Of a DNA stretch of 64,000 bases, positions 55,488 through 60,202 are shown piece after piece; within the stretch, counting starts at the first letter, position 1; the number at the start of each line of letters is the position of its first letter. Made by a program: the position numbers and the translations under genes. The stretch is from an uncultured Shimia sp. Its GTDB lineage: Bacteria; Pseudomonadota; Alphaproteobacteria; Rhodobacterales; Rhodobacteraceae. The stretch is from the NCBI RefSeq assembly GCF_947498095.1, contig NZ_CANMJE010000002.1:372001-436000 (forward strand), in the 5' to 3' direction. The notes below the pieces were generated by a model. It was not told where the DNA came from, did not search any database, and worked only from the letters and a program-made list of their open reading frames with translations.

Positions 55488-56198
55488 ATGACCCGTTTCT
55501 TGCTGAGTGTGTCCCTTATTTGCTTTTTACCCGGTATGGCCTCATCCGAAAGCCTTTGGAACAAGGTCAAGAAAGGCGCATCTGACGCCGGTACGGCGGT
55601 TGGCAATACAGCGAATGATGTGGGAACAGCGGTTGGTAACACGGCAAATGATGTCGGCACAGCCATCGATAACACGGTGTCTTCGACCTCTGAGATGCTT
55701 TCGGATGAGGCGACACCAGCTGAAACCCGCGCGCGTATTGACAGCGGGGCAACCAGAACCCTGGCAGCACTCCTGGCCGAGAACCCGCAGGCGCAAATCC
55801 TTTATGATCAGAGCTATGGGTATGCCGTGTTTGATGCGCGCCAAGTTGCTATTCTAGGGGCGGCGGCCGGGTATGGTCGTGGCGTTGCGGTCGTGAAAGA
55901 AAGCGGTGCGCGCTCATATATGAGCATGGGAACAGGGGGCCTCGGGGTGGCGTTTGGCATTGGGGGCTTTGAGCGGCAGATCGTGATCTTGTTCGAAACC
56001 GCCGGGCATTTTGATGATTTCGTGCGCAACGGTTATGACGCCACGGCCGAAGCCAGCAGCATGACGGGCAATGACAACGACATGGAACAAGCCCGCTTTG
56101 TCGAAGGTCGCTCGTTCTATTACCTATCCAAAAATGGTTGGCGCGTGGCTGCGACGGCAACAGGGACCAAGTACTGGCTCGACAATGACTTGAACTGA
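55488..56198 (+). CDS. SYLF/YSC84-domain exported protein
   Basis: A 236-residue protein with a Sec signal (about 1-20, MASSES cleavage region). After it, a short tandem repeat GTAVGNTANDV occurs twice and a third variant GTAIDNTVSS follows, about residues 36-64. The C-terminal SYLF (YSC84) domain (about 75-236) contains AAGYGRGVAVVKE and the GGLGVAFGIGGFERQIVILF region, a lipid-binding fold known from eukaryotic and bacterial proteins. The repeat looks like a flexible spacer. The ATG at 55488 has GAGGAG upstream. Envelope association is inferred. Confidence 0.85.
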   Translation: MTRFLLSVSLICFLPGMASSESLWNKVKKGASDAGTAVGNTANDVGTAVGNTANDVGTAIDNTVSSTSEMLSDEATPAETRARIDSGATRTLAALLAENPQAQILYDQSYGYAVFDARQVAILGAAAGYGRGVAVVKESGARSYMSMGTGGLGVAFGIGGFERQIVILFETAGHFDDFVRNGYDATAEASSMTGNDNDMEQARFVEGRSFYYLSKNGWRVAATATGTKYWLDNDLN

Positions 56199-56208
56199 TC
56201 CCGACGCA

Positions 56209-56988
56209 TTAGGCCGCCAACTCAACCCAGACCGGGACATGGTCTGAGGGCTTTTCACGTCCTCGGATTTCTTTGTCGATCTGGCAATCACGCAGCAGAT
56301 CGGCACATTGCGGGCTGAGCAGAAAGTGGTCGATACGAATGCCATCGTCACGGTTCCACGCCCCGGCCTGATAATCCCAGAAACTATAGTGACCGGCGCC
56401 GTGCACACGAGCGCGGAATGCCTCGGTGAAGCCAAGATTCATCAGACGCCGAAAGGCGGCGCGGCTTTCGGGTCGGGCAAGGGCGTCTTCCTGCCACGCC
56501 TCGGGGCGCCGGGCGTCTTCGTCTTGGGGGATGATGTTGTAGTCGCCGGCCATCAGGAAGGGTTCTTCCATCGCCAGCAGTTCCTGCGCGCGCGCGTGAA
56601 GCCGTTCCATCCAGGCAAGTTTATAGTCGTACTTGGGGCCGGGGCAGGGGTTGCCATTCGGCAGGTAGAGACCACAGACCCGCACAGGGACATCCCCCAT
56701 AACGGTAGCCTCGATCCAGCGGGCCTGTTCGTCGCTGTCATCGCCGGGCAGGCCGCGTGTGATGTCCTCCAGAGGGAGTTTTGACAGGATGGCGACGCCG
56801 TTAAAGGATTTTTGGCCGTGGGTTTCGACCTGATAGCCACGTTCTTCAAAGATTTCTCGCGGAAAAGCTTCGTCCACAGACTTAATCTCTTGGAGCAAAG
56901 CTACGTCAGGCTGCGCTTCATCCAGCCAGTCGGGTAGGGCGTTGATCCGCGCCTTGATGCCATTGATGTTAAATGTGGCGATTTTCAC
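56209..56988 (-). CDS. xth: Exodeoxyribonuclease III
   Basis: A 259-residue AP endonuclease/3' exonuclease of the xth family. Metal- and substrate-site residues are seen in FNINGIKARINAL (N-terminus), LLQEIKSVDEAFP, GLYLPNGNP and AGDYNIIPQDEDAR with the catalytic Asp-Asn, then the terminal IDHFLLS and SDHVPVW. It repairs abasic sites. It is convergent with the SYLF gene (10 bases apart) and divergent from the TSGL-repeat gene. Confidence 0.94.
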   Translation of the reverse strand: MKIATFNINGIKARINALPDWLDEAQPDVALLQEIKSVDEAFPREIFEERGYQVETHGQKSFNGVAILSKLPLEDITRGLPGDDSDEQARWIEATVMGDVPVRVCGLYLPNGNPCPGPKYDYKLAWMERLHARAQELLAMEEPFLMAGDYNIIPQDEDARRPEAWQEDALARPESRAAFRRLMNLGFTEAFRARVHGAGHYSFWDYQAGAWNRDDGIRIDHFLLSPQCADLLRDCQIDKEIRGREKPSDHVPVWVELAA

Positions 56989-57374
56989 GGCGCTCTCCCT
57001 GCTCAGATTTTGTTAAGATTTATCCTCACTCCGTGAGGAGAGACAAGCCACCGCGACGAGAGGAGTAGAGAATCTCTCGAGTCGGCAGTGCGATTCCGGG
57101 CTCGGATTCGGCATCCCCCCAGATAGATTCGGATACACTTTATGGTTGAGTTTTCGAAATGTGGCGAAAATGAGGCGCAAAAAAGGCGAAAAAATGCAGC
57201 CAGCAACATGCAAATAATTTAATTTAAAAACAGATGGTTGGGGGATTTGTGGTTCTGAGATTGAAATTGATCTAACACCAAATGCGAGAAAAATTATTTT
57301 GCAAACCCGTTTAACGTGCAAGCCTGAAGAGGCTCAAAACTTCAAAACGAAACCTAACTCGGAGGGTCTTTCTT
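56989..57374. other. 386-base divergent upstream region without a gene
   Basis: No ORF here is convincing on either strand. The region is A/T-rich at 57180-57330. It contains a hairpin CCTCAC/GTGAGG (57024-57038) near the xth side and a second GAGA/TCTC stem near 57070, and ends in a strong GGAGGG Shine-Dalgarno for the repeat gene at 57375. It presumably holds both promoters; I see no recognisable operator. Confidence 0.6.
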
Positions 57375-57812
57375 ATGCTCGCAAAAAAATCTGTTGAAAT
57401 GGTTAACGAAACCTTTGCAAACCGTGCGGTGCAGCGTTCTGGCACAAGCATTCATGACGGTATGAACACGGAAATGTTCACGTCTGGTCTATCGCCAGAG
57501 ATGGCACAGGACGCAATGGCCGGTGATGGCGCCGAGATGTTCACATCCGGCCTTGTACAAATGTACACCTCGGGCCTGGCCGCCACCGGCAGCGCAACAG
57601 AGGCCGGCGATGGCACCGATCTGTTCACGTCGGGACTGGTGGAAATGTACACTTCGGGCCTCGCGGCAACCGGCGATGCGGTGGAAACCGGCGAAGGCAC
57701 TGAAATGTTCACCAGCGGACTGGTGCAGATTTTTACGTCTGGTTTAGTGCCAACAGAAAAGGCCGAAGCCGAAGCGGGTGAAGGCAATGCGCTTTTCACC
57801 TCGGGCCTTTAA
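57375..57812 (+). CDS. [FY]TSGL-repeat protein, possible multi-core precursor peptide
   Basis: A 145-residue protein with eight copies of the pentapeptide [FY]TSGL, at residues 35-39, 56-60, 64-68, 84-88, 92-96, 112-116, 120-124 and 141-145 (the very C-terminus). Motifs come in pairs 8 residues apart, and the pairs repeat every 28 residues. Linkers are acidic and Gly/Ala/Thr-rich (AATGSATEAGDG). The N-terminal 31 residues are unique and could be a leader. There is no signal peptide, no membrane segment and no cysteine. Every copy uses different synonymous codons for TSGL, so the repeats are old and the peptide is conserved by selection. Function is unknown; precursor of a processed peptide is one reading. 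Strong GGAGGG Shine-Dalgarno. Confidence 0.8.
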   Translation: MLAKKSVEMVNETFANRAVQRSGTSIHDGMNTEMFTSGLSPEMAQDAMAGDGAEMFTSGLVQMYTSGLAATGSATEAGDGTDLFTSGLVEMYTSGLAATGDAVETGEGTEMFTSGLVQIFTSGLVPTEKAEAEAGEGNALFTSGL

Positions 57813-57831
57813 GACCGATTGCAACGGGAAC

Positions 57832-57851
57832 GGGGCGCCGAGAGACGCCCC
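57832..57851 (+). terminator. Weak hairpin between the repeat gene and the next gene
   Basis: GGGGCG and CGCCCC form a 6-base stem with an 8-base loop, 20 bases after the repeat-gene stop, without a U-run. It may lower expression of the downstream gene relative to the repeat protein. Confidence 0.4.
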
Positions 57852-57872
57852 CTCTATACCACGGTGACTGAC

Positions 57873-58907
57873 ATGACCAACATTGTTCAACTCAACGTCC
57901 CGTCCCAGCGGCAATCTCAGCCTGACCATCACGCGGCATTGATGGCCAGTTTTGCCAGCTACCGTCGGTTTGGTGACGATGTGTTCTGGCTTAAAGAAAA
58001 CGCCGAACTTCTGAACATTCTGGAATGTTCTGGGGCGTCGGCAAACGAAGTTGCGCTGGATGCCTATCGCGGCTTTTATGACAAGGGCGAAGACCGCCTG
58101 CGGTTCTTTCCGCAGTATTATCGGTTTCTCTTGTCGATCTGTTTGGATCTCGAAGACCTAGGAATGGATGGATCCAAAGGCGAAGAACTCACGAAATGGG
58201 TCTCAGAACAAGGGTTTGCGCACGCTGAACTTTCTGATCTTCAGCGCATGGAGGCGCGCCGCCTTATGGCACGTCGTGGATGTGACCCACTGGCAAATGA
58301 CAGCAGTCTCGAAGAACGGATGCGTCGTTTCATTGCCCGGTCTGCAACCTTTTCCATGCCCAACAAAAAGGCCGCCTATGAACTGACACATGCGGTTTTC
58401 TATCTCTCGGAATATGGTCGCAAAGACCCGCAGCTTGACGGTGACATACGTACCTCGCTGGAATTTACCGGGCTTTTGGCCTTTTTAGAACAAAACGCGG
58501 ATCTTTTGGCCGAGGTTTGCATCGCACTACGGTATGGCGGGTTTGACGTGCCAGTCGTCTGGGAAAACTGGTTGGTACGTCACACGCATCGCTTTGCGAT
58601 TGAGACCGGTGGCCAGACAACGCCGATGGACGGCTACCATGAATTTCTGGTTTGCAACTGGATGATGTCGGTCTGTGGTCACAAGAGTTTTGCCAAGCCG
58701 GTCAAATCCGAACGTATGGCGTTCTTCCGCCCTGACGGGGTTGCAGGTCCGCTGCGTGAATTGTCGGAATGCATGTATAAACTGCCTGATCGTTCCGGTG
58801 ATTGGGAGGTGATGCGCCGGGTCGTATTGGACCATCTCTCAGAGGATGCGCAGGCGGTTGTTGGCTGGGCTGAGACCTCCTGTGACAAATTTGGTGATTT
58901 TTTCTAA
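57873..58907 (+). CDS. Unrecognised, largely helical soluble protein
   Basis: A 344-residue protein starting at the ATG of MTNIVQLN (the frame is open 18 codons further up). It is predominantly alpha-helical with paired aromatic and Leu-rich helices (ILECSGASANEVALDAYRGF, FFPQYYRFLLSICLDLEDLG, KKAAYELTHAVFYLSEYGRK, CNWMMSVCGHKSF) and four scattered cysteines. No HExxH, radical-SAM, ATP-grasp, kinase or YcaO motif is visible. Position 61 bases after the TSGL-repeat gene suggests a partner of that protein. I cannot name the family. Confidence 0.7.
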   Translation: MTNIVQLNVPSQRQSQPDHHAALMASFASYRRFGDDVFWLKENAELLNILECSGASANEVALDAYRGFYDKGEDRLRFFPQYYRFLLSICLDLEDLGMDGSKGEELTKWVSEQGFAHAELSDLQRMEARRLMARRGCDPLANDSSLEERMRRFIARSATFSMPNKKAAYELTHAVFYLSEYGRKDPQLDGDIRTSLEFTGLLAFLEQNADLLAEVCIALRYGGFDVPVVWENWLVRHTHRFAIETGGQTTPMDGYHEFLVCNWMMSVCGHKSFAKPVKSERMAFFRPDGVAGPLRELSECMYKLPDRSGDWEVMRRVVLDHLSEDAQAVVGWAETSCDKFGDFF

Positions 58908-58945
58908 GGCTTTGCTCGCTCCGGTCGCTCAATGGCGGGGCACGC

Positions 58946-59869
58946 ATGACACGCTTTAACAATACAGCGCTCGTGGGCACCGGTTTGGCGGTGCTCTACA
59001 CGCTGATGATTTCCTCGGCAGACGCCATCACAAAGTTCATAGCCAAGGGCTATGCGGCACCTCAACTCTTTGCCCTGAGTGGTGCCATCGTGGTCGGCCT
59101 TGCCTGGGTATCGTCGCGGGCAGGGGGCACACGCCAACCCCTCAGAACCTCCTGCCCGCGCGCGATGGCTCTAAAGGCTGCCCTGACGATTGTTGGATCG
59201 GCCGCCTTTTTCTACGCATTTCGCTATCTTCCCTTTGCGGAAGTCTTTGTTTTCATTGGCTTGATGCCAATTTTTGCCGGGTTGTTTTCGGCACCAATAT
59301 TGTCTGAACACGTCCGCCCCATGGCCTGGGCTGCGCTGGCGGCGGGTTTTGTCGGTGTGCTGTGCCTGTTCCCCGCTGGGCTGTCTTCGGTGTCTTTTGG
59401 CCATGGCATCGCGCTGATCGCGTGCCTGTGCGGCACACTTTCAATGGTTCTGGCGCGCTATATTGGCCGTCACGAAGACAACGCCCTGTCACAGGTGCTG
59501 TTCACCAATCTTGCGCTGTCGATCTCAATGGCTCTTGTACTGCCGTTTGTTTTTGTGCCGATGCCTCTGAGCGATTTGGTCTGGGTCGCCGCTTATGCAG
59601 TGTTCTTGTTTGCCGCCCGCCGGCTTTTGGTGGTGTCGTTGCGTCTGTTAAAAGCCTACACGGTCACGCCGCTGATGAACTTGCAGTTTGTCTGGATGGT
59701 TGTGCTAGGCGCGGTGTTCTTTGGCGAGGTGCCCGCCACCAATATCTACCTTGGTGTGGCCATCGTCATTGGGTCAGGTGTGTTTCTGGTCTGGGATCAA
59801 ATGCAGCCGGATACACAGGTGTCCTTGCCACGTTTCTCTTGGATACGTCGCATAAGGTTTTCCAGATAA
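58946..59869 (+). CDS. DMT-superfamily (EamA) transporter
   Basis: A 307-residue, ten-helix membrane protein of the drug/metabolite transporter superfamily: two EamA repeats, the first with YTLMISSADAITKFIAKGY and FYAFRYLPFAEVFVFIGLMPIFAGLF, the second with SLRLLKAYTVTPLMNLQFVWMV and GEVPATNIYLGVAIVIGSGVFLVW. Family members export amino acids, metabolites or drugs. It is 38 bases after the unrecognised gene and may belong with it, but DMT genes also occur alone. Confidence 0.9.
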   Translation: MTRFNNTALVGTGLAVLYTLMISSADAITKFIAKGYAAPQLFALSGAIVVGLAWVSSRAGGTRQPLRTSCPRAMALKAALTIVGSAAFFYAFRYLPFAEVFVFIGLMPIFAGLFSAPILSEHVRPMAWAALAAGFVGVLCLFPAGLSSVSFGHGIALIACLCGTLSMVLARYIGRHEDNALSQVLFTNLALSISMALVLPFVFVPMPLSDLVWVAAYAVFLFAARRLLVVSLRLLKAYTVTPLMNLQFVWMVVLGAVFFGEVPATNIYLGVAIVIGSGVFLVWDQMQPDTQVSLPRFSWIRRIRFSR

Positions 59870-59878
59870 GAAATTGAA

Positions 59879-60202
59879 TTAAATCGAAAAACTTGTGCCG
59901 CATCCGCAAGAACTTGTGGCGTTAGGGTTTTCAATCACAAACCTCGCGCCGATCAATTCTTCGCTAAAATCGATCACCGCATTGGCCAGAAATGGCAACG
60001 ACACCTCATCAACCACAACCCGCTCACCATTACCTTCCAGTACCATGTCGTCCGCGGCAGGTTCGTCCAGCTTGATCTCGTATTGAAAGCCGGAACAGCC
60101 GCCGCCTTCGACCGCGACACGCAGGGCCTGACCCTGATCGGCGGCGCCAATCTCTGCAAGACGTTCAAAGGCACGGTCCGTGACTTTTGGCGGAAGGTTC
60201 AT
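59879..60202 (-). CDS. A-type iron-sulfur carrier (IscA/ErpA/SufA family)
   Basis: A 107-residue A-type carrier that passes Fe-S clusters to apoproteins. The three cluster cysteines are C36 (GGGCSGFQY) and C99, C101 (SSCGCGTSF). The start is the ATG at 60202 (MNLPPKVT); the frame is open far upstream but is not protein-like there. It is divergent from dgt and may be the ErpA-like housekeeping form; which one is not decided by sequence alone. Confidence 0.92.
   Translation of the reverse strand: MNLPPKVTDRAFERLAEIGAADQGQALRVAVEGGGCSGFQYEIKLDEPAADDMVLEGNGERVVVDEVSLPFLANAVIDFSEELIGARFVIENPNATSSCGCGTSFSI

Follow-up and report, generated by a model that had tools for sequence, protein, structure and literature searches.

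The window analyzed here, a 64,000-nucleotide stretch of an uncultured Shimia sp. genome (contig NZ_CANMJE010000002.1, positions 372,001 to 436,000), carries on its forward strand two consecutive genes, one for a 145-residue protein with eight [FY]TSGL pentapeptides (hereafter, cores) and one for a 344-residue protein of the Pfam family DUF6902. The notion that the two form a functional pair is well supported. Judging from their sequences, the pair works like a multi-core system of the ribosomally synthesized and post-translationally modified peptide (RiPP) type and is a candidate member of that class. The pair comprises the following features.

57361–57366, forward strand: ribosome-binding site GGAGGG, 8 nt before the start codon, by direct reading
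57375–57812, forward strand: multi-core precursor-like protein, 145 residues, eight [FY]TSGL cores, predicted to be disordered
57477–57491, forward strand: core 1, FTSGL, residues 35–39
57540–57554, forward strand: core 2, FTSGL, residues 56–60
57564–57578, forward strand: core 3, YTSGL, residues 64–68
57624–57638, forward strand: core 4, FTSGL, residues 84–88
57648–57662, forward strand: core 5, YTSGL, residues 92–96
57708–57722, forward strand: core 6, FTSGL, residues 112–116, serine codon AGC
57732–57746, forward strand: core 7, FTSGL, residues 120–124
57795–57809, forward strand: core 8, FTSGL, residues 141–145, exact C-terminus
57873–58907, forward strand: DUF6902 protein, 344 residues, candidate core-modifying enzyme (DUF6895-like), with an in-frame TAA that stops it approximately 13 residues short of its relatives

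The layout of the repeat protein agrees with the preliminary description of the locus. Three 28-residue units each contain two cores at a spacing of 8 residues, preceded by a single early core and followed by one that forms the C-terminus, and the cores are spelled FTSGL six times and YTSGL twice. The count of eight TSGL motifs was reached by none of 300 residue shuffles, placing it beyond chance. As had been noted, every copy differs in its codons: the eight 15-mers encoding the cores are all distinct, and the serine is written with a TCN codon in seven of them and with AGC in one. The proposed comparison of substitution rates across the eight repeats yielded a proportion of synonymous differences (pS) of 0.77 and a proportion of nonsynonymous differences (pN) of 0.104 in the cores, the F/Y change contributing to the latter, while the linkers showed a pN of 0.60. 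GGAGGG reads as a good ribosome-binding site for the gene, although, contrary to the earlier claim, such a site does not prove expression. The predicted structure is disordered, with a predicted local distance difference test score (pLDDT) of 41.7 and, at low confidence, short strands around several cores. No fitting model for the repeat protein exists in Pfam, NCBIfam, PHROGs, or PADLOC, and a Pfam scan of 20 precursors returned only scattered weak matches, each in at most two members.

The partner protein, previously described as unrecognized, was identified by profile search as DUF6902 (PF21843; E 1.8e-157, 524 bits against a cut-off of 27, profile positions 1–345 of 351). The same product matches DUF6895 (PF21836) more weakly, at E 2.6e-24 and 86.5 bits against a cut-off of 23.8, and a direct comparison of the two profiles with hhalign aligns them across residues 80–237 with 96% probability and E 2e-9. 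By these profile matches, DUF6902 is distant kin to DUF6895. In the joint alignment, no fewer than 113 of 116 DUF6902 and all eight DUF6895 domains have Tyr169, His173, Asp210, Glu214, Tyr255, and His256, and Trp39, Glu119, and Gly182 are nearly as well conserved. This His/His/Asp/Glu/Tyr set, aligned across both families, looks catalytic. The DUF6902 model is nearly all-helical and well folded (pLDDT 91, predicted template modeling score 0.90). Sequence searches against the PDB gave no meaningful match to any solved chain, and the Pfam and NCBIfam scans matched the protein to no nucleotide- or cofactor-binding family. The in-frame TAA of the window gene lies approximately 13 codons short of the end of its relatives (58905–58949), resulting in a shorter C-terminus; the DUF6902 gene of Roseovarius litorisediminis likewise has a stop codon within the matched stretch.

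The distribution of the pair was followed in a 60-genome sample that includes the window's own genome, an order-wide sample of 390 genomes from 139 genera, and a class-wide sample of 289. DUF6902 exceeded its cut-off in 18 of the 60 genomes, and direct search found the repeat protein in 17, all among these 18; the eighteenth (G026) has an upstream repeat open reading frame (ORF) with the core FTSWS, too divergent for such a search. A repeat ORF lies upstream of DUF6902 in all 18 (the window and 17 relatives), and 99 of 100 further loci from the order-wide set possess either a repeat ORF or at least two core-like copies. The earlier proposal of a multi-core precursor beside a dedicated protein is strongly supported by this pairing, together with the core-focused selection described below. 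The gene-order comparison that had been suggested found the partner protein conserved together with the repeat gene, so the refuting condition set beforehand does not hold for this partner. Within the order Rhodobacterales, DUF6902 occurs in 107 of the 390 genomes and 46 of the 139 genera. It exceeded the cut-off in three of the 289 class-wide genomes, each from the window's own family.

Over these 118 loci, a repeat was scored when a 4-mer occurred at least three times within an ORF ending no more than 300 nt from the DUF6902 start. The count was reached at 107 loci, 105 of them cleanly and two (L112 and L131) through a masked stretch, yet showing cores. Ten others contain two core-like copies by eye (L149, L157, L162, L169, L170, L174, L180, L187, L190, and L191), with the two copies of L169 differing from each other, and a single locus, L164, has no core-like copy upstream of DUF6902. 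A second, overlapping set, the best 80 of 336 GTDB matches, was read with a looser pattern and no shuffles; at least three core-like matches lie upstream in 78 of these 80 named loci, 56 of which were taken into the structure alignment. The closest named relatives among these best 80 are Shimia species, with at most 79% identity. Phage and plasmid collections, from which records very close to the window were possibly excluded, contained no DUF6902 match at E 1e-5. With this result and the conserved flanks of chromosomal type, a phage or plasmid origin was rejected.

Core sequences were compared in 116 precursors, excluding L164 and L131 and with the core label of L120 moved by one residue by hand. 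Approximately 40 core pentamers occur across the lineages, among them FTSGL, FVSGL, FTCGL, FTSWS, FTTSM, and FSSTC. The consensus core starts with F in 107 precursors, has T or S at position 2 in 109, and has S, T, or C at position 3 in 114, or 115 after one register correction; G, S, or W predominates at position 4, and S, L, M, C, or A at position 5. The Thr and Ser of the core had been described as modifiable. The conservation of position 3 is compatible with such a possibility. Before register refinement, the stretch leading into the core approximated G-[DE]-x-[VT]-E-[MA], and the core often precedes an Ala/Gly/Ser-Pro pair. The main core is present in 1–20 instances per precursor, and the last core is the end of the protein in 80 of 116.

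Pairs of instances within a genome agree at 99% for core positions 2–5 and at 89% for position 1, where instances were chosen with at most two mismatches to the genome consensus and strongly different second cores thus lie outside this value. Between genomes, agreement is 25–57% at positions 2–5 and 75% at position 1. Mixed precursors were recognized by eye at L118, L122, L124, L127, L133, L134, L136, L145, L148, L149, L151, L152, L157, L169, L170, and L174. FSTSC stands together with FSSGS in one precursor at L122, L124, and L127; these three and L133, L134, L152, and L157 each contain two core types, for example FSTSC in the middle of the protein and FSSGS at the ends. Such two-core precursors are possible intermediates of a core switch.

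Comparison of copies within the same gene over the 116 precursors gave a pS of 0.544 and a pN of 0.061 for the cores, corresponding to a pN/pS of 0.11; the ratio is 0.47 for the six pre-core residues and 0.85 for the linkers. The cores are under strong purifying selection, and the linkers are nearly neutral. Since synonymous divergence is wide while pN is low, most copies are old, with the peptide held by selection rather than by fresh duplication, as the preliminary description had argued from the window alone. Little synonymous change is seen in a few genomes (L104, with a core pS of 0.09, and L180). The core types follow the DUF6902 tree: from 114 rows and 40 types, with L189 and L191 excluded for a short or broken DUF6902, the labels require 48 changes, whereas 100 shuffles required 86 on average (81–90). 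Switches between close relatives are visible. L054 has five copies of [FY]VSGL, its tree neighbors L057 and L058 have [FY]TSGL, and the flanks of the first and last copies are alike. The clade of L094–L097 and L099 has four core types (FTSGS, FTSGL, FTCGL, and FTSAS), with the first flank recognizable in all five members and the last in four, L096 being the exception. Two histories could explain this: selection may have acted on many coordinated changes one copy at a time, or conversion of short tracts may have spread them, with synonymous drift afterwards.

The related family DUF6895 offers a comparison. Seven DUF6895 loci were opened, including four of the seven plasmid matches, and a small precursor-like ORF was found at every one, directly upstream in six and one gene further away in S. 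fungicidicus, whose peptide looks unlike the others. G540 has two small ORFs, G615 has one ORF with two core-like stretches, G038 has one ORF, and the plasmid loci (Kitasatospora, Pseudalkalibacillus, and two Streptomyces) have one each. By eye, these precursors mostly combine one leader with one or two longer hydrophobic cores, which are mostly rich in W, Y, and V and share no common Ser, Thr, or Cys. At the G540 locus (L278, 3100–9600), two small peptides that resemble each other, with ...LVG[RP]W[YF]V..., come before the DUF6895 gene, and a papain-like cysteine peptidase, an O-methyltransferase, and a major facilitator superfamily transporter are encoded nearby; the locus looks like another RiPP cluster. 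On the Kitasatospora and Streptomyces plasmids L280 and L281, DUF6895-containing proteins of approximately 580 residues follow small peptides with GYVLAW[DE][KR]YVLVV, with type I polyketide synthase genes present within approximately 6 kb. The title of a paper (ACS Catal. 2026, doi 10.1021/acscatal.5c08590) cited in PMC13352647 describes a DUF6895 family protein as an epimerase that modifies a lasso peptide. The literature searched, in which subscription journals are thinly covered, yielded no mention of DUF6902, and the term DUF6895 was met only within the reference list of PMC13352647. None of the matches to FTSGL or YTSGL concerned a repeat-core system by title, and among the matches listed for Rhodobacteraceae or Roseobacter RiPPs, multi-core precursors, and peptide epimerases, none describes such a system in its title or the start of its abstract.

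The surroundings of the pair contain the following features.

56209–56988, reverse strand: exodeoxyribonuclease III, conserved left flank
57832–57851, forward strand: possible hairpin GGGGCG...CGCCCC between the precursor and DUF6902 genes, z score −0.2 in the window, not significant
58946–59869, forward strand: EamA/drug/metabolite transporter (DMT), E 9e-14, optional neighbor
59879–60202, reverse strand: ErpA-type Fe-S protein, conserved right flank, scoring above the cut-off of TIGR00049 and just under that of the ErpA model (111.2 of 117 bits)

The window neighbors (exodeoxyribonuclease III, the DMT, the ErpA type, a dGTPase, and ArgS) form flanks that are alike in most relatives: of 117, exodeoxyribonuclease III is present in 115, the ErpA type in 111, and both in 110. 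The third gene is, as had been stated, a DMT transporter on the same strand. Its proposed role as an exporter of the peptide pieces fared less well. The gene follows DUF6902 in the window and in 69 of the 117 relatives, the L189 locus among the other 48 stopping at a contig edge. When all ten members of the sampled genus that lack DUF6902 were opened, the flanking genes were adjacent in seven, and only the DMT gene stood between them in three (L284, L289, and L292). A dedicated exporter was rejected as a general rule on these counts. The transporter and the pair are separable by loss, because these three loci retain the DMT gene between the two flanks with no precursor or DUF6902. Since the flanks are largely constant while the DMT gene comes and goes, the unit is the two-gene pair, with the transporter optional.

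The Pfam and NCBIfam scans of the genes around the pair in the window, with the remaining genome unscanned, found no lanthipeptide, YcaO, or radical S-adenosylmethionine class enzyme, in line with the preliminary description, which had also seen no protease at the locus; lasso-type cyclase and B1/B2 neighbors were likewise absent there. An attenuator hairpin between the two genes was considered and set aside as a minor point. Under mononucleotide shuffles, a z score below −2 was obtained for 36 of 113 intergenic stretches versus six of 113 controls within DUF6902, but the raw folding energy was no better than that of the controls, falling below −10 in 100 and 109 of 113, respectively. To the left, 55488–56198 encodes a SYLF-type protein, matched in NCBIfam below the cut-off, with tandem DVGTAVGNTAN repeats close to its N-terminus.

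An encoded precursor with conserved cores thus stands beside a dedicated gene for a putative enzyme, the arrangement by which RiPP systems are recognized. Cyanobactin precursors contain several cores, each with its own recognition stretch. Fungal pheromone and dikaritin-type precursors, which are eukaryotic, secreted, and processed by Kex2-type proteases, contain numerous short cores, almost identical to one another, with variable linkers in between; the window precursor shares this design, whereas the secretion and Kex2 features were not noticed here. The hallmark of lasso clusters is an asparagine-synthetase-like cyclase with B1 and B2 proteins beside the precursor. Microviridins are described as having several cores per precursor processed by a single enzyme (PMC5934393). 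Unlike microviridin and cyanobactin loci, the DUF6902 locus consists of two genes only, has five-residue cores, and lacks an ATP-grasp, YcaO, or PatA/PatG-type protease gene. DUF6895 systems share with it a homologous enzyme family, the Y-x3-H, D-x3-E, and Y-H residues, and a small peptide gene close upstream. They differ in that DUF6902 was found over its cut-off solely in the window's own family, with a multi-core pentapeptide precursor and no lasso-type neighbors. MslH, the Ca-dependent epimerase of MS-271, is a lasso-peptide epimerase of another fold, described as calcineurin-like in contrast to the nearly all-helical DUF6902, and is reported to use two His/Asp pairs (PMC10406935). It resembles DUF6902 in having two His and two acids and acts at the precursor C-terminus, where the last core of most DUF6902-associated precursors also lies.

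We interpret the locus as a two-gene RiPP-like system in which the cores of a multi-core precursor would be modified by DUF6902, most likely by epimerization, and assign this reading a probability of roughly 0.5. The first gene would yield an unstructured precursor, as the low-confidence model suggests, beginning with a short leader at the N-terminus and continuing with anything from a few to approximately 20 tandem units. In most units, a pentapeptide core F-x-[STC]-x-x would come after a recognition stretch of the unit's own, approximately G-[DE]-x-[VT]-E-[MA]. DUF6902 would recognize the stretch ahead of the core and act on each core, most likely converting one residue from the L- to the D-form through the conserved His/His/Asp/Glu site, and a protease encoded outside the locus may release the cores. 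Two conserved His and two acids would fit a two-base epimerase on the principle reported for MslH. The lack of a shared Ser/Thr/Cys core in DUF6895 precursors would favor backbone chemistry. Epimerization as the specific chemistry, taken on its own, falls a little short of an even chance.

Several observations weigh against this interpretation. The kinship of the two families is distant, and the function of DUF6902 may differ from that of DUF6895. A Foldseek search of the DUF6902 model against the PDB gave no significant fold match (best E 0.25), and the weak matches at and above this value include many peptide- or protein-binding solenoids, tetratricopeptide repeat (TPR) and armadillo (ARM) types among them. 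Core uniformity is not absolute, as a loose pattern flagged 27 of the 116 precursors as mixed, of which approximately 16 are truly so by eye. Two named loci fall short of three core-like matches upstream, L235 with zero and L205 with two. At 48 of 117 loci no DMT gene was seen, and the two- or three-gene unit contains no protease gene, the rest of the genome not having been searched for one. That core position 3 is almost always S, T, or C could indicate side-chain chemistry.

This last point leads to an alternative that is unlikely but retains some weight, in which the pair is still RiPP-like and DUF6902 performs side-chain chemistry on the core Ser, Thr, or Cys, such as dehydration, cyclization, or acylation. 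Positions 2–5 as a whole are rich in S, T, and C, which favors this alternative, but the polar enzyme residues are common to both families while the DUF6895 precursors have no such shared residue, and the absence of any match of DUF6902 to a nucleotide- or cofactor-binding family also speaks against it. An unlikely reading of another kind has DUF6902 bind the cores as a receptor, chaperone, or scaffold, making the pair a signaling or assembly module rather than a biosynthetic one. The nearly all-helical fold and the non-significant TPR- and ARM-type matches suit this role, and both the uniformity of the cores and their tracking of the DUF6902 tree would also fit ligand–receptor coevolution. 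The near-invariant polar set in two distant families nevertheless looks catalytic, and the title cited in PMC13352647 presents a relative as an epimerase.

A still less probable explanation gives the intact repeat protein a structural or matrix function, with DUF6902 as its assembly factor. Tandem units in up to 20 counted copies and the short strands modeled at several cores are consistent with such a role, but the low pLDDT, the near-neutral linkers, and a main-core number that ranges down to one argue against it, and a lattice would not obviously need concerted core differences between species. That the repeats are functionless low-complexity sequence arising by chance or recent duplication is scarcely credible. 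Near-identical units do occur in some relatives, such as L104 and the long array of L093. Elsewhere, wide synonymous divergence accompanies uniform cores, with the core pN/pS far below that of the linkers; the pair spans 46 genera and keeps the same locus in 110 of 117 relatives, and the shuffles did not reproduce the TSGL count.

Returning to the two-gene RiPP-like system, DUF6902, a domain of unknown function, gains an immediately testable candidate substrate, and the natural variation of the core, approximately 40 types that each have a neighboring enzyme gene, constitutes a ready data set for enzyme specificity. Copies that have diverged synonymously, yet are identical as peptides within a genome and differ between species, are a striking case of coordinated selection on short repeats. 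The repetition of one uniform core suggests that a single peptide product is needed in many copies and that its dose matters, and the differences in the core from species to species suggest a signal or antagonist particular to each lineage. Our more tentative proposal is that the pair represents an undescribed multi-core RiPP class of Rhodobacterales, in which DUF6902 would epimerize F-x-[STC]-x-x cores into lineage-specific D-residue pentapeptides, possibly species-specific signals; all copies would switch together, for example from FTSGL to FVSGL, because the enzyme or a receptor would tolerate only one version. The pattern of core identity and variation suggests that these bacteria make a lineage-specific peptide product.

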